Part shown: positions 4,451-16,639 of the stretch, piece by piece
Position numbering within the stretch: position 1 is the first letter of the stretch
Layout: each line of letters begins with the position of its first letter
Source: an uncultured Porphyromonadaceae bacterium
GTDB lineage: Bacteria; Bacteroidota; Bacteroidia; Bacteroidales; Muribaculaceae
Reading direction: 5' to 3'
NCBI GenBank assembly: GCA_947567425.1
Contig: CANOLV010000022.1
Coordinates: 1 to 45,864, forward strand
Length of the DNA stretch: 45,864 nucleotides
The notes under the pieces: generated by a model
Told to the model about the DNA's origin: nothing
The model's input: the letters and a program-made list of their open reading frames with translations, nothing else
Databases searched by the model: none
Program-made: the position numbers and the translations under genes

Positions 4451-5131
4451 ATGAAACCCACCATAAACTTCACCGGCAAGGAGAGTGTTGTAGACCTGAT
4501 CGAACAGGACTACAACATTCTTCCCGTGCTGAGCCGCTTCAACATACCACTCGGATTTCAGGACAAGCGCATCGACGAAGTGTGCGCGGAGAACGGCATC
4601 GACACTCAGGTGTTTCTCTTCATCATCAACTTCATCCTGAGCGGACGCATCGACGTGGAGTCACTGCCACGGATATCGCCGCTCGCCGTGGTCGACTTCC
4701 TCCACAACAGCCACGACTACTTCCTGCGCTACAAATTCCCCCACATCAGGCAGAACCTCATGCTGGCTCTCGACGACTCGCTCGCCGACATCAATCCGGC
4801 CATAATCACATTCTTCGACGACTATATCAAGGAGGTAAAGAAGCACTTCGCCTACGAAGAGACCAAAGTGTTCCCCTACATCCGATCACTTATATCCGGA
4901 GAGATTTCGTCATACAACATCAGCATATTCAAGCGCCACCACGACGAAATTGCCGACAAGCTGGCCGACCTCAAGAACATAATCCTGCGCTTCTACACCA
5001 CTTCAATGCCCAACAGGATGTATGACGTGCTCGTCGACCTATACAACGCCGAAGAAGATCTCGACTCGCATGCCGACATCGAGAATCTGATTCTCATACC
5101 GCTCATAGCATCCCTTGAAGACAAGCAATGA
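4451..5131 (+). CDS. Hemerythrin-like (HHE) di-iron protein, RIC/ScdA-YtfE-like layout
   Basis: A 226-residue predicted cytoplasmic di-iron protein. The N-terminal ~75 residues resemble the short helical domain that precedes hemerythrin in RIC (ScdA/YtfE) iron-sulfur repair proteins, but I do not see that domain's usual cysteine. The C-terminal hemerythrin fold shows spaced ligands: H in NSHDYFLRYKFPH, HFAYEETKVFPY, KRHHDEIADKL and DSHADIENLILIP. RIC proteins repair Fe-S clusters damaged by nitric oxide or oxidants, and a comparable role is an inference here. The gene overlaps the following LuxR-type regulator by 4 bases (ATGA), so both are made together. A plain oxygen or NO sensor is the alternative. 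Confidence 0.75.
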   Translation: MKPTINFTGKESVVDLIEQDYNILPVLSRFNIPLGFQDKRIDEVCAENGIDTQVFLFIINFILSGRIDVESLPRISPLAVVDFLHNSHDYFLRYKFPHIRQNLMLALDDSLADINPAIITFFDDYIKEVKKHFAYEETKVFPYIRSLISGEISSYNISIFKRHHDEIADKLADLKNIILRFYTTSMPNRMYDVLVDLYNAEEDLDSHADIENLILIPLIASLEDKQ

Positions 5132-5730
5132 AACAGACTGTCATAGGCCTACTGTCGCTCCCTCCGATAATCGAATCGGGCATCACGTCGATGATCGGCA
5201 AGATGCGGTCGGTCAATTGCTCCATCCACCGGATCGACCCTGCGCGGATCAAGGAGCAGGCCGCGCACCTGAGGCCGACCGTAGTCATAGCCGACCCGTT
5301 TGCGGTAGGTCCTTCCACGGCGGCGGAGCTTCGGGCATCGTCAAAGAACGGAACCAAACTGGTCGGCATCAACTACTGCGCCATACCGCCGGCATCGGCG
5401 CGGCTCTTTGACGCCATAGTCTCCGTACACGACCAGGCCTCCGCGGTCGAGTCGATTCTGAACAAGCTCTCGGCCTTTGAAGATCAAGCCTCAGAGGACG
5501 TAGAGTCGAAGTCGCTGAGCCAAAGGGAAAAAGACGTGGTCATAGGCATAGCCAAAGGTCTGTCCAACAAAGAAATCGCAGCCCGGATGTCAGTGTCGGT
5601 CAACACCGTGATGACCCACCGCCGAAACATATCGGCCAAACTCAAGATACACTCCCCGGCGGGTATCACCATCTACGCGATAGTCAGCAAGCTCATAAAA
5701 CTGGAAGATATAAAGACCGACCTCGGCTGA
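5128..5730 (+). CDS. LuxR/NarL-type transcriptional regulator with atypical receiver domain
   Basis: A 200-residue DNA-binding protein. The C-terminal ~65 residues are a clear LuxR helix-turn-helix: LSQREKDVVIGIAKGLSNKE, then IAARMSVSVNTVMTHRRNI. The N-terminal ~120 residues have receiver-like spacing, with a possible phospho-acceptor D in RPTVVIADPF. The usual acidic pair near the N-terminus is absent (VIGLLSLPP). Control by ordinary histidine-kinase phosphorylation is therefore doubtful. Its 4-base overlap with the hemerythrin-like gene suggests that protein, or the stress it deals with, is linked to this regulator. No histidine kinase is nearby. Regulatory targets are unknown. Confidence 0.8.
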   Translation: MKQTVIGLLSLPPIIESGITSMIGKMRSVNCSIHRIDPARIKEQAAHLRPTVVIADPFAVGPSTAAELRASSKNGTKLVGINYCAIPPASARLFDAIVSVHDQASAVESILNKLSAFEDQASEDVESKSLSQREKDVVIGIAKGLSNKEIAARMSVSVNTVMTHRRNISAKLKIHSPAGITIYAIVSKLIKLEDIKTDLG

Positions 5731-5875: not shown

Positions 5876-6046
5876 ATGGCTTACGTAATCACTGATAAGT
5901 GTGTGGCTTGCGGAACATGTCTTCCCGTTTGCCCCGTAGAGGCTATCTCTGAAGGCGATATCTATCACATCGATCCCGACACCTGCATCGAATGCGGCAG
6001 CTGCGCTGAAGTTTGCCCCAGCGAAGCAATCATCCCCGGAGAATAA
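5876..6046 (+). CDS. Small 2[4Fe-4S] ferredoxin
   Basis: A 56-residue bacterial-type ferredoxin that shuttles low-potential electrons in the anaerobic cytoplasm. It starts MAYVITDKCVACGTC and has two complete cluster motifs of the CxxCxxCxxxCP type: C9, C12, C15, C19 followed by P, and C37, C40, C43, C47 followed by P. The two halves are similar to each other, as in clostridial ferredoxins. It stands alone between its own promoter (-7 at 5818) and a strong terminator (6073), which suggests high monocistronic expression. Partner oxidoreductases are not in the window. Confidence 0.95.
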   Translation: MAYVITDKCVACGTCLPVCPVEAISEGDIYHIDPDTCIECGSCAEVCPSEAIIPGE

Positions 6047-6136: not shown

Positions 6137-6168
6137 TTTGCAAAATTGGCTGTAAAGACTTAAATTTG
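6137..6168 (+). promoter_or_regulatory. Promoter of the RiPP cluster
   Basis: A -33 TTTG (6137-6140) and a -7 TAAATTTG (6161-6168) are separated by 20 bases, the preferred Bacteroidota spacing. The first ATG of the cluster is 28 bases downstream. This is one of the two best complete promoters I can read in the window and probably drives 6197-10782 at least. Confidence 0.7.
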
Positions 6169-6196
6169 CAACAAATCACTTCAAAACCTCTCCTAA

Positions 6197-7153
6197 ATGA
6201 ATCAACGACAACACAAATACTCGGTTGTTTTAGGGGGTGCCGGGTTTATAGGCTCCCACCTTTGCCTTAGATTGCTCTCCGACGGTCACGAAGTGTTGTG
6301 CGTCGACAATCTATCCACAGGATTCATAAACAACATCGCCATGATGCTCGACTCCCCTTCGTTCAAGTTCGTGCATCACGACATCACCGAACCTTTTACC
6401 CGATCCACGCTTGACGTGGAGCATGTCGATGAGATATACAATTTAGCATGCCCTGCATCGCCTCTGCACTATCAACGCGATCCGACAAAAACCTTATCGA
6501 CATCAATCATCGGTTCAATCAATGCACTTGCCTTAGCCATGGAGACCAAGGCCAAGATTCTACTTGCCTCGACAAGCGAAGTTTATGGAGATCCGACAAC
6601 ATCGCCACAAAACGAGTCATATTGGGGCAATGTAAATCCAAACGGTATACGAAGTTGCTACGATGAAGGCAAAAGAGCAGCGGAAACATTGTTTTGCGAC
6701 CATCATCGGCAATTCGGCACCGACACCAGCATAATCAGAATATTCAACACTTACGGACCGAAAATGGCGCCCGACGACGGACGTGTCATACCGACGTTAC
6801 TCCGGCAGGCACTCTCAGGTAAACCATTGACCATAAACGGCGATGGTACGCAGACCCGCTCGTTCATGTATATCGACGACCTGCTGGATGGAATACTCCG
6901 TGTTATGAAAGCCAACATTCCGGCGCTTCCTGTCAATTTAGGAAATCCGGAAGAAATATCTATCAACGAATTGGCGGCAACGATATTAAGTATAACCAAA
7001 TCGGACTCCACAATATTACATCGACCCATGCCACCAGACGATCCAAGACATAGGCGACCAGACATATCGCGGGCAAACCGTCTGCTTGACGGCTGGGAAC
7101 CCTCAATATCATTAGATAAAGGTTTAAAGCTAACACTAAACTCAATCAAATAA
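6197..7153 (+). CDS. UDP-glucuronate decarboxylase (UDP-xylose synthase)-like NAD-dependent SDR
   Basis: An extended short-chain dehydrogenase of 318 residues, predicted to convert UDP-glucuronate to UDP-xylose using bound NAD. The Rossmann glycine motif GGAGFIG is at residues 13-19 and the active-site Y155-x3-K159 lies in SCYDEGKRAAETL. The flanking QNESYWGNVNP and RIFNTYGPKMAPDDGRVI are the pattern I associate with UXS enzymes rather than GalE or RmlB. It is the first gene of the cluster and ends 3 bases before the glycosyltransferase, so it probably supplies that enzyme's sugar donor. A 4-epimerase or 4,6-dehydratase role is less likely. Neither reaction nor link to the peptide is proven. 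Confidence 0.8.
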   Translation: MNQRQHKYSVVLGGAGFIGSHLCLRLLSDGHEVLCVDNLSTGFINNIAMMLDSPSFKFVHHDITEPFTRSTLDVEHVDEIYNLACPASPLHYQRDPTKTLSTSIIGSINALALAMETKAKILLASTSEVYGDPTTSPQNESYWGNVNPNGIRSCYDEGKRAAETLFCDHHRQFGTDTSIIRIFNTYGPKMAPDDGRVIPTLLRQALSGKPLTINGDGTQTRSFMYIDDLLDGILRVMKANIPALPVNLGNPEEISINELAATILSITKSDSTILHRPMPPDDPRHRRPDISRANRLLDGWEPSISLDKGLKLTLNSIK

Positions 7154-7156
7154 GCC

Positions 7157-9460
7157 ATGAAAAACTTAAAATCCATAGACCGCAATACTCCGGCTATATC
7201 AGTATGCATGCCGGTATATAACCGACATGAATATATCGGAGATTGCATCGAAAGCATTCTTTCCCAAACATTCACGGACTTTGAAATAGTAATAGTCGAC
7301 GACGGCTCGACCGACGACACGTGCGATATAATCGAATCATACTGCGACCCAAGAATCAGGCTGATCAGAAATCGCCATAATTTCATTGAATCGTCAAACA
7401 TGACCCTTAACCTCGCACGAGCAAAATACATAGCACGCATGGACTCCGACGACATAATGATGCCCGACAGACTAAAAATCCAATATGCCTACATGGAGTC
7501 GCACCCGGAAACAGACATTCTCGGAGGAAGTCGCATCATTATCGGAGAATCAGACATGGAATATGTTAATGATTACGACGGTGATGTCACTCCCGCCATT
7601 CTACATAAACAATGTTGTCTTTCGCACCCTACCGTGATGATGCGTACGGATAGCGTTCGCAAAGCAAATCTGCAATATGAACAAAACAGCATATACTCCG
7701 AAGACTATCTCATGTGGATCCGCGCCATCATAGCTGGACTTACAATCAAAAACGTACCTGATATATTGGTAAAATACAGAGTCTCAAAAAGCCAGGTGAG
7801 TATAGCTCACTACTATACCCAAAGCAAAGGCTGTCGGTTCGCACAGAATCTTCTTGGGCGCTGGATGGGGCGCCGTGAAGAAGAAAAGTATGAATCTGCA
7901 AAAGCAACATATACGGCAGCTCCCACAAGCAATAATATATGTGTAGTAATCCCATTCTACAACGACGGCGAGGCAGTGGTCGATACAGTGGCACGCATAA
8001 GAAAGCAAGCCGGCGACGAAATAGACATAATCGTAGTCAACGACCAGTCAAATGACGGATTCCCCTACTTTGACAGATTCGCTCCATTCAGAGTACGCTA
8101 TCTTTACAGTAAAGAACATGTCGGTACGTGTCGGTGCATCGACATGGCCGCGAGACATACTTCGGCCGACGTTTTGGTTTATGTCAATCCACACTACAGC
8201 CTGAAAGGCCAAGAATGGCTCAAATATGCATGCGATGTAATAAAACGTCACCGGGCTGCATTTCTTGCATTTAGACCCCTGCAATACGGTGGAGACAAAG
8301 AATTTCTGTTTGAAAAGCTATCCTGCGAAAACGATACTCTAATTCTCACCGGAGGCATGCAGTCTGAAGTTGTGTCGCTATACAGCGGAGCATGGGCCGT
8401 AGCCCGCGAACATTGGAATCTGTTCAGTGAACTTACCAGTCTTACAAAACCGATTAACGACATCGGCTACATCATCCGTGCCGCATACAATTTCGGAAGC
8501 GAGATGCTTTTGTCAAATACTGGATTCTTGCGCAAGCTCTCGGACGACATCTCAGCATACATGCCCACTAAGGAAGAAATCATATACAACTATCTATTGG
8601 TCGCCAACACGACATTGACGACCATCGAAAAGTGTTTTGAACATTCCCTTTGGCTTGCGCACGACAAATTCCGTTATCATATAGCATCAATGATGATCAA
8701 CGAGGACTCCGAGATTATAGCCTCGGTGCGACGCAAGTTTAATCCACGGCCGGACAGACTGATATACTTCAATACAGACAAGCGGTGTCATGACATACTG
8801 AATCCGGAATTGCTCCACACCATAGCCAAAACCATCGAAGGCATACAGCCGGACAACTATGGACTGTACCATGGATTAACGGCTGGATTGATATGGACAG
8901 GCATCTACAATACTCTTGTTTCAGACAGTCCTTACAAACCGCTTGAAGAAAAATTCTCAGACATACTTTTCAATGCAATCACATCAGAGAGTATGACCGT
9001 AGATTTTCGCAACGGCGCATCAGGCATAGGTTATGCACTTATGGTTCTTGAAGCCACTACGGGCGAAGGCTACGATCAGATGTTACAGGCCATTGACAGA
9101 ATTATCGGACACCACGCAGATACCGTCCGCGGAGACGACTTCAGCAACGGAACCGGCGGACTACTTGCGTATCTGTGCCGTCGCATAGACAAAGGTTTCG
9201 ATGAGGCATTTCTTCAGGCCATGGACAAGGAATGCATCCGTCTGCTGAACAATTCGGCAGAACAGCTGACCAACTACTATGCGATGCTCTACATGACGGC
9301 GAGAAACAGACAGTCGCCCATACGCGAGCTTGACCTCTATTGGATGCAGACACCGGACTACATACCCGATAACAGCGGGTTCTGGAGACTGACCATGAAC
9401 GACGGAGTGTTAGGGACATCGATGAAAGCCATGATAAACGACATACAACATAAAAAATAA
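7157..9460 (+). CDS. Three-part glycosyltransferase: GT2 - degenerate GT2 - LanC-like C-terminal domain
   Basis: A 767-residue protein with no signal peptide. Residues ~10-235 are a GT-A family 2 glycosyltransferase, with ISVCMPVYNRHEYIGDCIES, VDDGSTDDT and the metal-binding D-rich motif RMDSDDIMMPDRL. Residues ~257-480 start a second GT2-like fold (CVVIPFYNDGEAVVDTVARI, VVNDQSNDG), but at the DxD position it reads VNPHYSL, so this copy may be inactive. Residues ~565-760 show glycine-containing helical repeats (GLYHGLTAGL, FRNGASGIGYAL, FSNGTGGLLAYL, NDGVLGTSM) like the alpha-toroid of LanC proteins. LanC's Trp-Cys and Cys-His zinc ligands are not visible. It sits between the UDP-xylose synthase and the radical SAM gene with spacings of 3 and 8 bases. 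I infer peptide glycosylation, perhaps on cysteine as in SunS-type glycocin enzymes, with the C-terminus binding the substrate. Confidence 0.7.
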   Translation: MKNLKSIDRNTPAISVCMPVYNRHEYIGDCIESILSQTFTDFEIVIVDDGSTDDTCDIIESYCDPRIRLIRNRHNFIESSNMTLNLARAKYIARMDSDDIMMPDRLKIQYAYMESHPETDILGGSRIIIGESDMEYVNDYDGDVTPAILHKQCCLSHPTVMMRTDSVRKANLQYEQNSIYSEDYLMWIRAIIAGLTIKNVPDILVKYRVSKSQVSIAHYYTQSKGCRFAQNLLGRWMGRREEEKYESAKATYTAAPTSNNICVVIPFYNDGEAVVDTVARIRKQAGDEIDIIVVNDQSNDGFPYFDRFAPFRVRYLYSKEHVGTCRCIDMAARHTSADVLVYVNPHYSLKGQEWLKYACDVIKRHRAAFLAFRPLQYGGDKEFLFEKLSCENDTLILTGGMQSEVVSLYSGAWAVAREHWNLFSELTSLTKPINDIGYIIRAAYNFGSEMLLSNTGFLRKLSDDISAYMPTKEEIIYNYLLVANTTLTTIEKCFEHSLWLAHDKFRYHIASMMINEDSEIIASVRRKFNPRPDRLIYFNTDKRCHDILNPELLHTIAKTIEGIQPDNYGLYHGLTAGLIWTGIYNTLVSDSPYKPLEEKFSDILFNAITSESMTVDFRNGASGIGYALMVLEATTGEGYDQMLQAIDRIIGHHADTVRGDDFSNGTGGLLAYLCRRIDKGFDEAFLQAMDKECIRLLNNSAEQLTNYYAMLYMTARNRQSPIRELDLYWMQTPDYIPDNSGFWRLTMNDGVLGTSMKAMINDIQHKK

Positions 9461-9468
9461 AATTTGCC

Positions 9469-10782
9469 ATGAAACTGAATAAATATACCAATTTCGTCAC
9501 TATTGAGGGTGACGATTATCTGTTCAATCTCGCCAACGAGCGCATATTATACCTCGTTCCGGAACTGACCCGTATTGTAAAAGAGCTTAACGGAGACATA
9601 GCTGAACTAAGCGCAATCCATCCTGAACTTTACAATGCCATGGTGCGCGACGAAATGATTACGCCACGCCATACAGACGACACGGAAGCATTTGTCGACG
9701 ACCAACTGCGTGCAGAAGCCGAATCGCGCAGATTTGGAATGACCATAAACCCTACGCTCGACTGTAACATGCGATGCTGGTATTGCTACGAGAAACACGC
9801 GACCTCGCGTATGAGTGCCGAGACATTGGAGCGTATCGTCAGACTTATCCAAAACAAGGCGCAAAGCGATGATATCGATCAGTTGAGCGTGTCGTTTTTC
9901 GGAGGCGAACCATTGCTTTACTTCAAAGATACGGTATATCCAATTCTGAGCCGTGCATCCGAGATATGCCGTTCAGAAGGAGTCGGTTTCGACAGCTCCT
10001 TCACCACCAATGCCGTGCTACTCACACGTCAAGTCCTCGACAGGATCAACGCTATTGAGGGCATTGGCAGGCCGCATTTCCAGATTACGCTCGACGGCAA
10101 CCGTTTTTTCCATAACCAAACACGCATATATGCCGACCGCAGACCCACATTCGACATAATATTCAATAATATGCGCTATGCGCTCGAATCTGGCAACAGG
10201 GTTGGACTGAGGTTCAACTACACCGATAAGAATATCGAATCGTTCATTGACGTTTACGACGAACTGATGACGTTGCCCCCTGAACTGCTGAAAAATTTGC
10301 ACTGCAGCTTCCAGCAGATATGGCAAAACAAGCAGGAAGGCATTAGAGCCAAGAAACGCGCCGCCGAACTTACAGCAAAGTTTCAGGCCACCGGACTGAC
10401 ATCGGAATGCGATTCGATATACCACCGCCATGTATGTTATGCCGACAGACCCGACCATGTATCAATCAACTATAACGGCGATGTATTCAAATGCACAGCC
10501 CGCGACTATTCTCCTGAACGACGTGAAGGTGTGATTTGTGAGGACGGAACCATCAAATGGAATCAGAAATACCATGACCGCATGACAATACGGTTTTCCA
10601 ATCCGGCATGTCGTAAGTGCCGGGTAATGCCCTTATGCAATGGACACTGCACACAAAGCAAACTCGAAAGTGCATCACACACCAAATGCTATCTCAATCG
10701 TTCGGAAGATGACAAAGACCGTCTGATTCATCATCGTCTTTATGAACTGGTCTATAAACATAAGTATGTAGAGCCTTGCTGA
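9469..10782 (+). CDS. Radical SAM/SPASM peptide maturase
   Basis: A 437-residue cytoplasmic enzyme predicted to modify the cysteine-rich precursor encoded just downstream. The N-terminal ~90 residues form a small domain common in SPASM maturases and are probably involved in substrate contact. The SAM-cleaving cluster motif is C99-x3-C103-x2-C106 in LDCNMRCWYCYEKH, followed by FFGGEPLL. The SPASM domain is canonical: C323-x13-G-x4-C342, then C381-x2-C384-x5-C390-x3-C394 and C407, enough for two auxiliary [4Fe-4S] clusters. Enzymes of this build make thioether or C-C cross-links in RiPPs, or act as sulfatase activators. The Gly-Gly precursor 61 bases downstream argues for RiPP maturation. The bond type formed cannot be told from sequence. 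Confidence 0.88.
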   Translation: MKLNKYTNFVTIEGDDYLFNLANERILYLVPELTRIVKELNGDIAELSAIHPELYNAMVRDEMITPRHTDDTEAFVDDQLRAEAESRRFGMTINPTLDCNMRCWYCYEKHATSRMSAETLERIVRLIQNKAQSDDIDQLSVSFFGGEPLLYFKDTVYPILSRASEICRSEGVGFDSSFTTNAVLLTRQVLDRINAIEGIGRPHFQITLDGNRFFHNQTRIYADRRPTFDIIFNNMRYALESGNRVGLRFNYTDKNIESFIDVYDELMTLPPELLKNLHCSFQQIWQNKQEGIRAKKRAAELTAKFQATGLTSECDSIYHRHVCYADRPDHVSINYNGDVFKCTARDYSPERREGVICEDGTIKWNQKYHDRMTIRFSNPACRKCRVMPLCNGHCTQSKLESASHTKCYLNRSEDDKDRLIHHRLYELVYKHKYVEPC

Positions 10783-10843
10783 AAGAATTGCCACATAGAG
10801 CGTTGGCATATATTCTCAATATTTAATTAAAAAAGATTTTCAA

Positions 10844-11128
10844 ATGAAAAAAGAAGAAAAGACCTTAAAGGTATTTATGGAGAGCATTCCGGCACTTGAA
10901 AAGTCGGAACTTGGAGTGCTGCGTGGAGGTTTTGGCGCTATTCATGGCGGTGGTATAAGTGACCCGATGGGAAATGGCAATTGCGGTATAAACTGCGGTT
11001 GTACTAACAATGGTTGTAACAGTGACTGTAACGACAATTGCGGTATAAACTGCGGTTGCGAAAACCCTTATTGCCATTTGATTAAACCCCAAAATGGAGA
11101 TTACGATTTAGCACTGTCATTCATGTAA
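10844..11128 (+). CDS. Cysteine-rich RiPP precursor with Gly-Gly leader
   Basis: A 94-residue peptide, the presumed substrate of the cluster. The leader (residues 1-29) is charged and helical and ends LEKSELGVLRGG, a classical double-glycine cleavage site for a C39 peptidase such as the one at 14221. The core (30-94) begins with a Gly-rich stretch and holds nine cysteines at 47, 51, 53, 58, 62, 66, 70, 72 and 77. C47-C58 and C66-C77 are two copies of CGINCGCxNxxC (CX3CXCX4C), 19 residues apart, with C62 midway. A 17-residue cysteine-free tail follows. The layout resembles Bacteroidales Gly-Gly precursors associated with radical SAM enzymes, but I do not recognise this core. The start ATG precedes a lysine/glutamate-rich leader. 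An AT-rich spacer lies upstream and a long hairpin downstream. Confidence 0.85.
   Translation: MKKEEKTLKVFMESIPALEKSELGVLRGGFGAIHGGGISDPMGNGNCGINCGCTNNGCNSDCNDNCGINCGCENPYCHLIKPQNGDYDLALSFM
10978..11058 (+). repeat. Internal duplication in the precursor core
   Basis: A 24-base sequence occurs identically at 10978-11001 and 11035-11058, 57 bases (19 codons) apart and in frame. It encodes the shared NCGINCGC segment of the two cysteine modules. Identity at the DNA level points to a recent duplication or gene conversion. Confidence 0.9.
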
Positions 11129-11134
11129 CCCAAA

Positions 11135-11170
11135 TTTATCGGAGTCCGAAAAATTTCGGACTCCGATAAA
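11135..11170 (+). terminator. Long perfect hairpin after the precursor gene
   Basis: A 16-bp uninterrupted stem (11135-11150 with 11155-11170) closes a 4-base AAAT loop, starting 6 bases after the precursor stop. It is not followed by a T run (TCAAGACAAA follows). It may be a terminator, or an mRNA-stabilising or processing structure that keeps precursor message more abundant than the downstream transport genes. Confidence 0.65.
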
Positions 11171-11271
11171 TCAAGACAAATAATAACATCTCAACTAAAA
11201 CCATATTTACTAAAATAATTCAATGTGTTTTTAATCAAATTACAATAATTGTATAACCAATCCATATCTGT

Positions 11272-14190
11272 ATGAAAAAGCTCGCGCTGATCTTTATAAC
11301 CATTTTATCGCTTTCTACAATAAATGTATTCGCGCATATCACGTCTGACAAAAAAATAATCGGACAGTTCAGAGGTGTTCCGGTCAATTCAATAACCAAA
11401 ATTCCAATCAATGACCCTAAAATGAAAATATTGCTGGTCAAGCAAACCGGCGAACTTATCGACAGCACCGGGACATATAAAAATCAAGTTGGGGGAAAAG
11501 ACTTTGTAGAATTCTGTACGTACGTATATGAAACCGGCGATTATAAACTGATATTTATCCACGAGGATTACGACACAACGCGTATTAATGTAAAATTTGA
11601 CGGGAAAAAGAAATACAAGGAATTAGGGGGTATCTCCGTTCGAAAATTGACCCGCGCCGAAAAAGGCGTGAAACTTGGAGAAGTTGTTGTTGCGGCCACA
11701 AAGGTCAAATTCTACAACAAGGGGGACACCATAGTATACGATGCCGACGCATTTCAGTTGTCAAGCGGTTCGATGCTTGACGGGCTTATCGAACAGCTTC
11801 CCGGAGCCGAGCTACACGATGACGGACGTATAAGCGTCAATGGGAAGTTTGTACAGGAGATTCTTCTAAACGGCAAGGATTTCTTCAAAGGCAACAATCA
11901 GGTGGCTCTTGAAAATCTACCGGCCTACATGGTTAAAAATGTTGAAGTCTATGACAAACAGAGCGATGAAAGTCGCTATGCGGGTATGAAGATGGACGAA
12001 GGGACATTCGTGATGAACATAAAACTGAAAAAGGACTATCAGGAAGGTTGGCTGGCTAACGCCGAAGCCGGAGGAGGCACCAAAGAACGCTATATGGGAC
12101 GCGCTTTCGCACTGCGCTTCTCCCCCACCTCGCGAGTATCGCTGTTCGGCAACATCAACAACATCAGCGACACACGCAAGCCCGGGCGCAACGGCGACTG
12201 GTCGCCTGCTGACCTGACCAACGGACTCGCTACCACCAAAAACGGTGGCATAGACTACAACCTGTTTGACCAACAAAAAACCTATGACATAAACGGCAAC
12301 GTACAAGCGACCTACACGGAAGGACTGTATGATGCACGGACGAGCACTCAGAACTTCCTGACATCAGGCGACACTTATGGACGAGGATGGAGCCGATCGG
12401 AAAATAATAACTTCAAACTAAATACCAACCACCAACTTGAATATTTCTTCGGTCCCGGAACCAGTGAACGCAGTATCATACGACTAAACCTTCAGGCAAA
12501 TTACAATAAATTTGACCGAAAGACCGGAAGTGTCAACGGACTGTTTGACTCGCATCCTGACGACATATACAATCTACGCGACAGCATACTACAGAACCAC
12601 TTAACAAAAATACCGTGGGTCAATACTTCTGTACGCAGCTACCGCTCCAAAGGCAATGATCTCACCACTGCAGGAAACTTTATGATATTCTATTCCGATA
12701 CAAACTACGACATGTCGTATAGATTTGACATCGGAGGCTCCTATAAAAATTCAACAGACAATATTGACGACATGTACCATATACAGTTCAGGCAAGCACC
12801 GCAAAATGCAGAAAAAAGACAGAATAATTCACCTTTGGACAGGTATTCATATTTCGCCAAAGTTGCGCTTTTTATTATTCCGGACAGAGATTGGCGCATA
12901 TATCCAGCCTATGAATTCAGGAAAACCTACTCGCATACCACAAGTGACTGGTATGTACTTGATCAAAACGAAGAAGGTCGGAATTCATTAATGCTACCGT
13001 CGATGAGAAACTCTATGGTTAATATGTTAGACTCCGAAAACAGCTATGATATGGGAGTACATTCCCAGAGCCATAAGATAGGAGTAGGATTCGTGCATAA
13101 TATGTCAAACTCCACAAAAGATTCTCAAAAAAAATGGTCTGTCAACATGAACTTGACTCTATCAGCCACCTATCGTATAGACAATATATTCTTTAATGGG
13201 GCAAAAACCATATCGAAAAAAAGAGAAAAATGGCTACCGAGTCCGGAATTTTCTTTGACATGGAATACTCCGGGATCTAACAACTATTTTTATCTGATAT
13301 ATCAGATGTTGCCTGAAACGCCAGATTTTCTCAACCTCATAGATGTTGAATTCACATCCGACCCCCTGAACATACGCACTGGTAATCCGAACTTACGGAA
13401 TACAATCCACCATAAAGTGCAATTTAACTATATGGCACGTCAGTGGGCCTTTAAAAAGCAGATAAATCTGTCTGTTCAAGCGGGCATATCGGTATGGAAC
13501 AACGGTCTATCAATGGGATACACCTATGATCCTAATCTCGGAATCCGTCACTATCGCCCAGAGAACATACAAGGTAACTGGTGGGCATGGTGCTACGGAT
13601 TGCTAACACTGCCTTTGACTCATGACAAACGGTTAACGCTCGGCACCTACACACGTGCCGACATCAGCGAGGCGGCAGACTTTGTAGGAATCGGAGACCA
13701 AACTTCTACGCAAAAACAGATTGTCCACAGTGACCAGTTTATGGAAAATCTATCGTTAAATTACTCTATTGGTAAATTTAAAGTAGGAATTAACGGGAGC
13801 ATACAGTATAAGCATGGTACAGCAAACACCAGATCATTCCAATCTATTAACGCAACCGAATTCCAATATGGGCTGACCGGTTTGGTAAAATTGCCGTTGA
13901 GCATTGAATTTGCCACTGATATAAAGATGTTCAGCCGCCGAGGATACTCCAACTCGTCGATGAACACCGACGACCTGGTGTGGAACGCCCGCCTGTCGAA
14001 AAGCGTCATGAACGGCAACCTCACATTCGCCGTCGATGCCTTCGACATCCTGCACAACCTCTCAAACATACGCTATGACCTCGACGGCCAGGGACGCACC
14101 GAGACATGGGTCAACTGCATCCCGCGCTACGTGATGGTCAAAGCCATATATCGACTCAACATACAGCCCCGAAAACGCTCGGCCAACTAA
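11272..14190 (+). CDS. TonB-dependent receptor-like outer membrane beta-barrel of the RiPP cluster
   Basis: A 972-residue outer membrane protein. It has a Sec signal peptide (MKKLALIFITILSLSTINVFA), a carboxypeptidase-regulatory-like beta domain to about residue 135, and a plug-like region (about 145-245: LGEVVVAATKV, SMLDGLIEQLPGAEL, VEVYDKQSDESRY). A long barrel full of alternating aromatic strands fills the rest. This matches the Bacteroidota OMP_b-brl_3 / TonB-receptor group, whose members take up or pass large solutes. No SusD partner is present, so it is not a glycan-utilisation pair. Its place between precursor and exporter suggests it moves the mature peptide across the outer membrane, or is the peptide's receptor. 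Base composition is mosaic along the gene. Confidence 0.8.
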   Translation: MKKLALIFITILSLSTINVFAHITSDKKIIGQFRGVPVNSITKIPINDPKMKILLVKQTGELIDSTGTYKNQVGGKDFVEFCTYVYETGDYKLIFIHEDYDTTRINVKFDGKKKYKELGGISVRKLTRAEKGVKLGEVVVAATKVKFYNKGDTIVYDADAFQLSSGSMLDGLIEQLPGAELHDDGRISVNGKFVQEILLNGKDFFKGNNQVALENLPAYMVKNVEVYDKQSDESRYAGMKMDEGTFVMNIKLKKDYQEGWLANAEAGGGTKERYMGRAFALRFSPTSRVSLFGNINNISDTRKPGRNGDWSPADLTNGLATTKNGGIDYNLFDQQKTYDINGNVQATYTEGLYDARTSTQNFLTSGDTYGRGWSRSENNNFKLNTNHQLEYFFGPGTSERSIIRLNLQANYNKFDRKTGSVNGLFDSHPDDIYNLRDSILQNHLTKIPWVNTSVRSYRSKGNDLTTAGNFMIFYSDTNYDMSYRFDIGGSYKNSTDNIDDMYHIQFRQAPQNAEKRQNNSPLDRYSYFAKVALFIIPDRDWRIYPAYEFRKTYSHTTSDWYVLDQNEEGRNSLMLPSMRNSMVNMLDSENSYDMGVHSQSHKIGVGFVHNMSNSTKDSQKKWSVNMNLTLSATYRIDNIFFNGAKTISKKREKWLPSPEFSLTWNTPGSNNYFYLIYQMLPETPDFLNLIDVEFTSDPLNIRTGNPNLRNTIHHKVQFNYMARQWAFKKQINLSVQAGISVWNNGLSMGYTYDPNLGIRHYRPENIQGNWWAWCYGLLTLPLTHDKRLTLGTYTRADISEAADFVGIGDQTSTQKQIVHSDQFMENLSLNYSIGKFKVGINGSIQYKHGTANTRSFQSINATEFQYGLTGLVKLPLSIEFATDIKMFSRRGYSNSSMNTDDLVWNARLSKSVMNGNLTFAVDAFDILHNLSNIRYDLDGQGRTETWVNCIPRYVMVKAIYRLNIQPRKRSAN

Positions 14191-14220
14191 CCGACTCAAA
14201 AGCGTCAACCACGACTCAGT

Positions 14221-16419
14221 ATGGACAGATTCCCGTTCATCAAACAGAAGGACTCAATGCAGTGCGGAGTAGCATGCCTGGCAATGATATGCCGCCACTT
14301 CGGACGGACATATTCGATCGGCATGCTATCAAAGCTCTGCTTCGCCACAGCCGAAGGAGTGTCGATGCTCGGGATAAACGACGCGGCCGAAAAACTCGGA
14401 CTCTCGACAGCGGCTACACGCATGACAGCCGAGCAACTCGCCTCGGCACCGACACCATGCATACTGCATTGGAACCAAAACCATTTCACTGTGCTGTATA
14501 AAGTGAGCCGGAGAGGCGACCGCTATCATATAGCGGATCCTGCAAAGGGAAAAATAGCTTATTCGCGAAAAGAGTTCGAGAGCAGATGGCTAAGCACCGC
14601 GGACAACGACGGAGAACGCAAAGGTATAGCAATGTTCTTTCAGCCTACAGAGGAGTTCCGTTCGCGCCTCGAAGTCGACGACGTTCCGGAAAAGCGTTCA
14701 TTCAAATTCCTGATGGGTTATCTGAGACAATACCGGCGGTATTTTCTGCAGATAGTGGCCGGATTGCTTCTCGGAAGCCTAATGCAACTTGTGATGCCTT
14801 TTATGACACAAGCCATCGTTGATGTTGGAATAAAGCATAGCGACATAGGCTTCATTTGGCTCATATTGCTTGGAGAAATGATGATCGTGTTCGGACGCAC
14901 GGCAACAGACTTCATACGCCGTTGGCTTATGATGCACATCTCGATGCGCATAAACATATCGCTCGTAAGCGACTTCTTCATCAAACTACTGAGGCTACCT
15001 ATGTCGTTTTTCGACACCAAGCTTATGGGCGACCTTATACAGCGAATGGGCGACCACGGGAGAGTGCAATCGTTTCTGACCTCACAGACATTGGGAATAG
15101 CATTTTCAATGTTCAATTTCGTAGTTTTCGGCATAGTGTTATTCATCTACAGCAAGGTCATATTCAGCGTGTTCCTGATCGGAAGCCTGATATACGGAAG
15201 TTGGTCGGCATTGTTCCTGAAACGCAGAAAAATACTTGACTACGAACTATTCGAAAAGCAGGCAGTCAACCAAAACAAGACATATCAGTTCATAACTTCC
15301 ATGCAGGAAATAAAACTTCAGGACTGCGAACGGCGCAGACGCTGGGAATGGGAGGATGTGCAGGCCGACATGTTTGTCGTGCAGATGAAATCGCTCAGAC
15401 TGCAACAAGCACAAGAAGCGGGAAGCATCTTCATAAACGAGGTCAAAAATATACTCATCACCGTATTCGCCGCCACTGCCGTAATCGACGGACAGATAAC
15501 CCTGGGAGCCATGCTTGCCGTACAATACATCGTAGGACAGCTCAACAGCCCTGTGTCGCAGTTGATGGGATTTATATATTCACTTCAGGACGTGAAGATA
15601 TCGCTTGAGCGAATAAACGAAATTCACGAAAGTCAGGACGAAGAGAGTCCAGACAACAATACCATGGAGTTATCGGATAGTCATTCGATACAGTTGGAGA
15701 ATGTCAGGTTTAAATATGACCCCCACAGTCTCAACGACATCATAGACGGGGTAAGCTTTAAAGTCCCGGAAGGAAAAACAACCGCCATTGTGGGAGCCTC
15801 AGGAAGTGGCAAGACAACATTGATCAAGCTTATGCTCGGCTACTATCCAGTGTCGTCGGGAACACTGACAATAGGAGGCAAGGCTATCGGCCGCTATAAC
15901 ATGAAATGGTGGCGCAGACAGTGCGGAGTAGTGATGCAGGATGGAGTGATATTCTCGGAATCGATAGCCCGAAATATAGCCGTTGACGACGGCGAAATTG
16001 ACAGTAACCGACTCGAACAGGCAGCCCGGATAGCATGCATCCACGAATATGTCATGAGTCTGCCCCTGCGCTACGATACAATAATCGGACGCGATGGCGC
16101 AGGACTCAGCCAAGGTCAGAAGCAACGCATCTTGATAGCCAGAGCCGTATACAAAAATCCACAATTTATATTTCTCGATGAAGCAACTAATTCGCTGGAT
16201 GCAAAAAATGAAAGCATGATAGTGGACAACCTGACGGAATTTTACCGGGGACGTACAGTGGTTATTGTGGCCCACAGACTGTCAACAGTGAAAAATGCCG
16301 ACTTAATAATAGTGCTTGACCATGGAAGGATAGTCGAATCTGGCAACCACGACTCACTTATACGCGATAAAGGATCATATTATAATCTTGTAAAAAATCA
16401 ACTCGAACTTGGAGACTGA
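14221..16419 (+). CDS. Peptidase-containing ABC transporter (C39 peptidase - TMD - NBD)
   Basis: A 732-residue PCAT that should cut the leader after Gly-Gly and export the core across the inner membrane. The C39 cysteine peptidase is at residues 1-~130, with catalytic C15 in DSMQCGVACLAM, H88 in NQNHFTVLYKV and D106 in HIADPAKGK, so all three catalytic positions are present. About five or six membrane segments occupy ~165-455. The ATPase domain has Walker A GASGSGKTT from 525, signature LSQGQKQR from 629, Walker B IFLDEATNSLD and H-loop VAHRLS. It lies 30 bases after the barrel gene and overlaps the next short gene. A full-length HlyD adaptor would normally be encoded next; only a fragment is. 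Confidence 0.93.
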   Translation: MDRFPFIKQKDSMQCGVACLAMICRHFGRTYSIGMLSKLCFATAEGVSMLGINDAAEKLGLSTAATRMTAEQLASAPTPCILHWNQNHFTVLYKVSRRGDRYHIADPAKGKIAYSRKEFESRWLSTADNDGERKGIAMFFQPTEEFRSRLEVDDVPEKRSFKFLMGYLRQYRRYFLQIVAGLLLGSLMQLVMPFMTQAIVDVGIKHSDIGFIWLILLGEMMIVFGRTATDFIRRWLMMHISMRINISLVSDFFIKLLRLPMSFFDTKLMGDLIQRMGDHGRVQSFLTSQTLGIAFSMFNFVVFGIVLFIYSKVIFSVFLIGSLIYGSWSALFLKRRKILDYELFEKQAVNQNKTYQFITSMQEIKLQDCERRRRWEWEDVQADMFVVQMKSLRLQQAQEAGSIFINEVKNILITVFAATAVIDGQITLGAMLAVQYIVGQLNSPVSQLMGFIYSLQDVKISLERINEIHESQDEESPDNNTMELSDSHSIQLENVRFKYDPHSLNDIIDGVSFKVPEGKTTAIVGASGSGKTTLIKLMLGYYPVSSGTLTIGGKAIGRYNMKWWRRQCGVVMQDGVIFSESIARNIAVDDGEIDSNRLEQAARIACIHEYVMSLPLRYDTIIGRDGAGLSQGQKQRILIARAVYKNPQFIFLDEATNSLDAKNESMIVDNLTEFYRGRTVVIVAHRLSTVKNADLIIVLDHGRIVESGNHDSLIRDKGSYYNLVKNQLELGD

Positions 16420-16639
16420 CCGGATAAACAACAAAGATACATCGCACGACCGTCTCGAACTGCGATCGAAAAAAGTGCGCGACCTGCTTGAGGATATACC
16501 ATCTCCCGCCGTGCGCTACGGCACCCTTGTCATAGCAGCCGTATTCCTGATTGCCGTCGTTGCTATGGCATGCATGCGTTGTTCCGGCAACGAATCGACA
16601 AGCTTATTGGAGTACGTACTGTCGGGGATCATGCCTTAG
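16409..16639 (+). CDS. Short HlyD-like N-terminal anchor protein (truncated adaptor?)
   Basis: A 76-residue single-pass membrane protein. The segment LELRSKKVRDLLEDIPSPAVRYG followed by a hydrophobic helix (~residues 42-58) resembles the cytoplasmic start and membrane anchor of HlyD-family adaptors that accompany PCAT exporters in Bacteroidota. The periplasmic biotinyl-lipoyl and coiled-coil parts are missing, and the protein stops about 18 residues after the membrane. No ATG is available upstream of the membrane helix. The TTG at 16409, overlapping the transporter by 11 bases, is the best start. It may be a degraded adaptor gene or a reduced accessory subunit kept by the exporter. Similarity is judged by eye only. 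Confidence 0.55.
   Translation: METDRINNKDTSHDRLELRSKKVRDLLEDIPSPAVRYGTLVIAAVFLIAVVAMACMRCSGNESTSLLEYVLSGIMP

Follow-up and report, generated by a model that had tools for sequence, protein, structure and literature searches.

Mycofactocin biosynthesis includes a radical S-adenosylmethionine (SAM) step (MftC); to our knowledge, mycofactocin derives from a short peptide and involves no Cys-rich core, peptidase-containing ATP-binding transporter (PCAT) or outer-membrane barrel. It is described as a characterised glycosylated ribosomally synthesized and post-translationally modified peptide (RiPP) with a dedicated glycosyltransferase (GT), MftF (PMC7491314). In Bacteroidales, a 2023 survey presents areas combining radical SAM, LanC and peptide-GT genes, the biosynthetic gene clusters BGC3–5 (Fernandez-Cantos 2023, PMC10352776). 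Here we analysed a 45,864-nt stretch from an uncultured Porphyromonadaceae bacterium (contig CANOLV010000022.1), hereafter the window. It carries a plus-strand set of seven genes (6197–16639) for a UDP-xylose synthase (UXS)-like short-chain dehydrogenase/reductase (SDR), a three-domain GT, a radical SAM enzyme, a Gly-Gly precursor, a barrel protein, a PCAT and a membrane stub. The locus is very likely a RiPP cluster and, in our view, probably one of radical SAM type that brings along genes for glycosylation.

The locus resembles BGC3–5 in its radical SAM enzyme, a LanC-like protein without the zinc motif, a Gly-Gly precursor and a Bacteroidales host, and BGC3 also in its GT, whereas BGC3 has a pseudo-radical SAM protein and no PCAT; the survey passages on BGC3–5 do not mention a GT27-like domain, a fused GT2-GT27-LanC protein or a UXS (PMC10352776). 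The Gly-Gly radical SAM system of TIGR04148, TIGR04150 and TIGR04149 resembles ours through one relative (L143, see below), in which a GT27-like protein lies beside a TIGR04148 radical SAM enzyme and a TIGR04150 pseudo-radical SAM protein. However, the window enzyme scores 45.3 of the 300 bits required for TIGR04148 (GG_samocin), no pseudo-radical SAM gene occurs among the seven, and the precursor matches no NCBIfam model. The original prediction was aware of no characterised system that combines all these parts. A lack of precedent for such a set is not supported, since mycofactocin and the BGC areas, as far as those accounts describe them, are precedents; the locus is very likely a GT-bearing subtype of Bacteroidales radical SAM clusters, an idea close to BGC3 and mycofactocin.

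The GT family carries a GT27-like domain

The GT (767 aa, 7157–9460, plus strand) was divided into three domains by Pfam, profile and motif comparisons: a GT2 domain (residues ∼12–240) with an intact DSDD motif, a degenerate GT27-like domain (∼253–500) and a LanC-like C-terminus without conserved Cys or His. According to the sections consulted, a DxH instead of a DxD motif marks families GT27 and GT60, and a C-terminal His binds the metal in GT27 (PMC7185993); the ligands in GALNT1 are given as Asp209, His211 and His344 (PMC4202792).

A profile of the second domain, built from 12 relatives with the window excluded, was compared with the PDB. The top 15 of its 48 matches were polypeptide GalNAc-transferases (best 4e-21, profile positions 13–246). 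As a control, the profile of the N-terminal domain gave no polypeptide GalNAc-transferase among 36 matches at E ≤ 0.001. In a structure model of the window GT, the best 50 Foldseek matches were chondroitin and heparosan synthases together with enzymes of GT2 type, and the second domain was not revealed; a relative, L046, was therefore modelled instead. For its domains 2–3 (pLDDT 88.7) the best 50 of 1354 Foldseek matches were all GalNAc-transferases, at TM scores of 0.33–0.50 on either length for a query that spans two domains. Both the DxH motif and the C-terminal His, as metal ligands, were present in every one of the 13 relatives compared. Thus, at the family level, this domain shares with GT27 (and GT60) the DxH motif, the C-terminal His, an aligned YGCEEAYIS...GG block and the fold, GalNAc-transferases being its closest solved relatives. 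It differs from GT27 in being followed by a LanC-like domain in place of a ricin-type lectin domain, no lectin family appearing in the Pfam matches of 14 members, and the window copy lacks two of the ligands. GT60 is reported to include prokaryotic members (PMC7185993), and for an Aneurinibacillus genome one GT27 gene was counted (PMC7996765). The occurrence of a DxH enzyme in prokaryotes is thus not new per se. In titles and abstract openings of the open-licence literature searched, no RiPP cluster with an enzyme of this kind turned up, nor did we find there a description of a GT2-GT27-like-LanC enzyme, which is weak evidence of novelty.

The LanC-like C-terminus had been proposed at the outset and is borne out. 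Pfam LANC_like was found in 11 of 14 members, the window copy not among them, and nine of the 12 PDB matches of the C-terminal profile at E ≤ 10 are named LanC, LanM, LanKC or LANCL (best NisC, 3.1e-5). The remaining three are named protein kinases (865–871 aa), which may be LanKC too. An alignment of 13 C-termini contains no invariant or near-invariant Cys or His that could correspond to the LanC zinc ligands (Cys, Cys-His).

The second domain is degenerate in the window copy

In the window, the GT27-like domain (7913–8660, end approximate, plus strand), as delimited by family profile, motif table and length, fits the family profile over positions 6–120 only. NPH replaces DAH, no His occupies the GHIYR position, and the domain is 19 residues shorter than in L046; two of the three metal ligands are thus lost. 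Because of the truncated profile match, the lost ligands and the missing residues, this domain is, as judged from its sequence, very likely inactive as a metal-dependent transferase. The opposite pattern exists: L044 carries NADC in its first domain, L040 has no N-terminal GT2 domain (a transposase gene lies just upstream), and both keep the second domain. Compared with the window, these two loci suggest that the GT2 and GT27-like domains are separable; in L038, the GT27-like domain is a separate gene. The closest sister of the window maturase, L032 (Prevotella sp.), keeps both ligands and a tail of the kind described below. The multi-domain, peptide-type GT that had been announced is part of the system. 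The GT27-like character of its second domain in the family, the degeneration of that domain in the window and the Ser/Thr-poor core were not foreseen.

The domain is associated with Ser/Thr/Pro-rich precursor tails

To describe the acceptor side, we scored each precursor core by the largest number of Ser, Thr or Pro in any 12 residues, with a cut at 8. Precursors were collected from 84 loci, in 54 of which (the window, 20 GT and 33 GT-less loci) a filter found one. Curation dropped eight open reading frames (ORFs) as fragments or spurious (one each in L093, L059, L082, L063, L100 and L003, two in L089). Six precursors were added (L036 two; L039, L045, L144 and L037 one each), two others were given a later start, and seven near-identical loci were counted with their partners. 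A first count gave 14 of 21 GT-labelled loci against 2 of 28; L006, L088 and L096, which hold only GT pieces, were then removed. A tail score of at least 8 was observed in 13 of 18 loci with the GT27-like domain versus 2 of 28 radical SAM loci without it (Fisher 6.5e-6), and the association persisted within the maturase clade alone (17 versus 6 loci, p 0.0047). Repeated Thr-Pro or poly-Thr tails occur in L045, L047, L054, L133 and L144. The window stands at the other extreme: its tail score of 2 is the lowest of 50, as is, jointly with L100, its core Ser/Thr fraction of 0.06.

The window product could accordingly be cross-linked and unglycosylated, with the GT decaying or retained as a peptide-binding scaffold and the UXS serving another pathway. 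The ligand and residue losses in domain 2, the Ser/Thr-poor core and the presence in the same genome of a GT-less paralogous cluster (L136) all favour this. Nevertheless we regard it as rather doubtful: the DSDD motif of the GT2 domain is intact, no stop interrupts the 767 codons of the gene, the SDR, GT and radical SAM genes lie only 3 and 8 bases apart at the head of the operon, and 5 of the 18 domain-keeping relatives also have no rich tail, so that a tail may be dispensable. Peptide glycosylation is likely across the family, going by sequence comparison; for the window peptide itself, the claim of a sugar is weaker than for its relatives.

Precursor, maturase and export genes

The precursor (94 aa, 10844–11128, plus strand) has a leader ending in Gly28-Gly29 and a core with nine Cys, in which the block NCGINCGC occurs twice; tblastn found relatives in L032, L037, L042 and L135. 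Upstream, the radical SAM/SPASM-type peptide maturase (437 aa, 9469–10782, plus strand; PF04055, 2.7e-15) carries the cluster motif CNMRCWYC and has 69 relatives. Its best NCBIfam model is TIGR04463 (131.6 of 525 bits, under the cut-off). Like ranthipeptide and sactipeptide maturases, it is encoded beside a Cys-rich core, and the greater part of its sequence can be aligned with such enzymes (PapB, CefB, TIGR04463 and the geopeptide maturase), with scores far under the curated cut-offs. None of the best 25 NCBIfam models each for the SDR, GT, radical SAM and PCAT proteins reached its cut-off, the precursor, barrel and stub had no NCBIfam match at all, and PADLOC, run on four of the seven proteins, returned only generic radical SAM and ATPase matches.

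The exporter (732 aa, 14221–16419, plus strand) combines C39 peptidase, membrane and ATPase domains (PF03412 7.2e-35, PF00664, PF00005). The locus shows the arrangement that defines a PCAT-exported RiPP cluster, in which a modifying enzyme and a C39 ATP-binding cassette exporter are encoded next to a Gly-Gly precursor. The predicted combination of radical SAM RiPP genes and C39 export, with the GT as part of the system, is supported by the gene content, the relatives and the maturase clade described below.

The barrel protein (972 aa, 11272–14190, plus strand) matches PF14905 at 4.8e-11, as do 12 of 15 family members, while a TonB Plug was found in 2 of 15 at E ≤ 0.1 and the family profile found nothing in the PDB at E ≤ 1. 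Its description as TonB-type is only weakly supported. Could the product instead be a Cys-rich metal-binding peptide, imported by the barrel, and neither a bacteriocin nor a signal? The NCxC-type density of Cys in the core points this way, as do the recurrence of the barrel family in GT loci and its carboxypeptidase-regulatory and weak Plug matches. We consider it unlikely, however, since no metal-handling gene was recognised among the seven, the barrel has no PDB match, and barrel–exporter pairs without an adaptor are described in 4 of 9 Bacteroidales RiPP clusters in the survey passages (PMC10352776).

The last gene encodes a membrane stub of 76 aa with a TTG start (16409–16639, plus strand). 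It shows neither the barrel-sandwich nor the hairpin domain of HlyD adaptors and no family match. Stubs of 48–67 aa follow the PCAT in L043, L055, L069 and L136 (a likeness judged partly by eye), and longer proteins hold this position in L085 (153 aa), L034 and L041 (241 aa each). Given this resemblance to short membrane proteins after the same exporter elsewhere, the stub is probably no fresh truncation and perhaps adaptor-like; of the predicted 'HlyD-like stub', the short membrane protein stays and the HlyD name does not.

Relatives and maturase phylogeny

A contig scan based on the radical SAM enzyme gave 69 loci, 20 of which had some GT and/or barrel match. In 13 of them, the radical SAM and barrel genes are accompanied by a GT that contains the GT27-like domain (L032, L033, L035, L036, L037, L039, L040, L044–L047, L053 and L054); an exporter match was found in five of these 13 (L032, L035, L037, L046 and L047), several contigs ending early. 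GT pieces, weak matches or no GT were seen in L042, L043, L061, L088, L093 and L096. One genome of the window's family, G129, holds five GT–radical SAM–precursor clusters with different cores (L131–L135), one of them the L053 contig (L134), which was counted once. In total, 18 related loci carry the domain, the window not counted.

In an 81-row tree of the radical SAM enzymes, all 19 rows with a full GT27-like domain fall in one 27-row clade (100/98), the other eight rows of which lack a full GT, and the window enzyme is sister to that of L032 (100/99). The GT label required 3 changes versus 17.0 when shuffled (0 of 500 as low). A looser labelling of 22 rows, which took in L006 and L088 (GT pieces only) and L042 (no GT), placed 20 in the clade with 4 changes versus 19.3. 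A comparison of two named groups over labelled rows only (2 changes versus 2.9, 38 of 500 as low) does not address clustering. Since the domain lies beside the same maturase clade in 18 loci, the grouping is not a matter of chance.

Among 149 genomes of the window's family, only the window's own and G129 gave a strong GT match (next best 8e-43), and at least nine congeners searched had none at 1e-20; the cluster is therefore patchy. When 393 Bacteroidales genomes were searched with the domain-2 profile, four matches emerged: the window, L142, L143 and L144. The first pass scored up to six candidates per genome, so misses are possible. The same profile, in a phylum scan, matched one of 395 genomes, the window's own. 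In L142 (9035–19001), a GT27-LanC-like protein is part of a cluster of class I lanthipeptide type, where its neighbours are a lantibiotic dehydratase in split form (PF04738 7.7e-137, PF14028), a TIGR04149-type peptide above cut-off and a C39 exporter. In L143 (6674–17146), a GT27-like protein lies beside a TIGR04148 radical SAM enzyme and a TIGR04150 pseudo-radical SAM protein, both above cut-off, and two Branch(GT14)-GT2 type genes (one seen by Pfam, the other by tblastn); no precursor was identified there. In L144, the GT2 and GT27-like proteins are encoded by two genes, and a further gene encodes a Cys-rich peptide that ends in Thr-Pro repeats. The expected co-occurrence of the GT with RiPP genes thus holds in L142 and L143, and in L144 for a candidate precursor but not, within the 12 kb covered, for a maturase or an exporter.

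The window genome also contains a paralogous cluster (L136, G000:C12:48000-66000, 8319–14548) with precursor, radical SAM enzyme, barrel, PCAT (75% identical to that of the window) and a 48-aa stub, and without GT or SDR.

Putative sugar supply

The first gene of the cluster encodes an SDR of 318 aa (6197–7153, plus strand) annotated as a UDP-glucuronate decarboxylase/UXS by phmmer against the PDB. Its closest relatives there are human UDP-glucuronate decarboxylase (UXS1) structures (E 1.6e-93), with which it shares the segments LLASTSEVYGDP and CYDEGKR. These include the TSE and YxxxK residues, which have roles in UXS. It is therefore an extended SDR closest to UXS, as had been supposed. UDP-xylose, which would give the predicted pentose addition, is a plausible donor for the GT. 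The window genome has one nucleotide-sugar dehydrogenase above the family cut-off and a second in two pieces. Within the window's family a UXS is rare (3 of 59 genomes), and two of the three copies adjoin a radical SAM gene; other Bacteroidales families commonly have one (29 of 40 genomes). For the SDR, the outcome on the anticipated co-occurrence with the cluster is thus mixed. The idea that a UXS always belongs to the system was rejected because of this rarity. In L037, the UXS is accompanied by a Branch gene of GT14 type, the family to which core-2 and xylosyl transferases belong.

Two further loci carry a UXS, or a piece of one, next to a radical SAM gene. L137 (G002, 6797–11516) has the UXS directly upstream, an 86-aa ORF resembling the radical SAM N-terminus between the two, and two barrel-like genes; L042 (15–1681) is a near-copy of the L037 cluster with a UXS piece directly before the radical SAM gene.

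That the SDR and GT are surface-polysaccharide genes which adjoin a RiPP operon by accident would agree with the spread of UXS outside the family and with the likeness of the GT2 domain to polysaccharide GTs (chondroitin synthase, EpsE), but it is highly improbable given that all 19 full GT loci fall in one maturase clade, that, of the three other matches in the 393-genome scan, two have known RiPP enzymes as neighbours and one a candidate precursor, and that a LanC-like domain is fused to the GT.

Locus organization and neighbouring genes

All seven ORFs are present as consecutive plus-strand genes with the predicted starts, ends and gaps (3, 8, 61, 143, 30 and −11 bases in order, the stub overlapping the exporter by 11). 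The promoter predicted ahead of the first gene is likewise there (6137–6168, plus strand): TTTG-N20-TAAATTTG matches what we take to be the Bacteroidales-type promoter consensus, which has four matches in the window versus 0.40 expected (0 of 100 shuffles reach four). In the 143-base gap between the precursor and barrel genes lies a perfect 17-bp stem-loop (11134–11171, plus strand; −26.6 kcal/mol, z −8.5), a possible processing site or partial terminator that could divide the transcript or adjust its level.

A 4Fe-4S ferredoxin gene (NF058577, above cut-off; 5876–6046) ends 150 bases upstream of the first cluster gene; its product could be an electron source for the radical SAM enzyme. A pair of genes for an Fe-S repair (RIC-like) protein and a LuxR-type regulator adjoins the cluster in the window (4451–5730) and in L038 (4369–5681), two different families, and is also found in five of five congeners examined. 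In both congeners with the LuxR and aldolase genes on one contig (G001 and G012) these genes are far apart, so there is no simple empty site.

Discussion

Taken together, these results suggest a pathway in which the radical SAM enzyme would bind the leader and cross-link the Cys/Asn repeats, most likely through thioether links, and the GT would then put a sugar on the peptide, the UXS of the same operon providing the likely donor. In the relatives, the GT27/GT60-type DxH domain probably begins O-glycosylation on the Ser/Thr-rich tails and the GT2 domain would extend it. In the window, with two of three ligands lost and no such tail on the core, only the GT2 domain could act; it would either use a different site or transfer nothing. 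The exporter would cleave after Gly29 and pump the product out, and the barrel would probably take over at the outer membrane, either releasing the product or taking it up again.

Several observations weigh against cluster-encoded glycosylation as described here. On the acceptor side, five of the 18 loci that keep the domain have no rich stretch, the tail measure was set after viewing the sequences, and the loci share ancestry. Of the 30 loci missed by the precursor filter, four GT loci (L036, L039, L045 and L144) were added by hand and 26 GT-less loci were left out. With so few Ser and Thr in the window core, sugar attachment may not happen there. On the enzyme side, the maturase falls under every NCBIfam cut-off shown, and no maturase or exporter was seen within 12 kb in L144. 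UXS and GT occur together only in the window and L037, most GT loci having no UXS; L042 has a UXS piece and no GT, and L137 a UXS and a radical SAM gene with neither a GT nor a recognisable precursor.

Beyond the proposal that the window locus combines radical SAM RiPP genes with dedicated glycosylation genes, we tentatively suggest, with rather less confidence, that in Bacteroidales a RiPP-dedicated GT27/GT60-type enzyme O-glycosylates mucin-like Ser/Thr/Pro tails of Cys-rich peptides cross-linked by radical SAM enzymes, that this module has been reused with class I lanthipeptides and TIGR04148 enzymes, that the products are secreted mucin-like glycopeptides, and that the window represents a joint loss of domain and tail. 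If so, the window copy is a natural negative control for the GT27-like domain. Bacteria would then decorate small secreted peptides using a relative of the initiating enzymes of mucin-type O-glycosylation. Glycosylated RiPPs would thereby have a new origin, and such proteins might provide peptide O-glycosyltransferases that are simple and soluble. Several host records are labelled as gut or rumen Bacteroidales; in such hosts, mucin-like glycopeptides would raise questions of mucus mimicry or protease protection.

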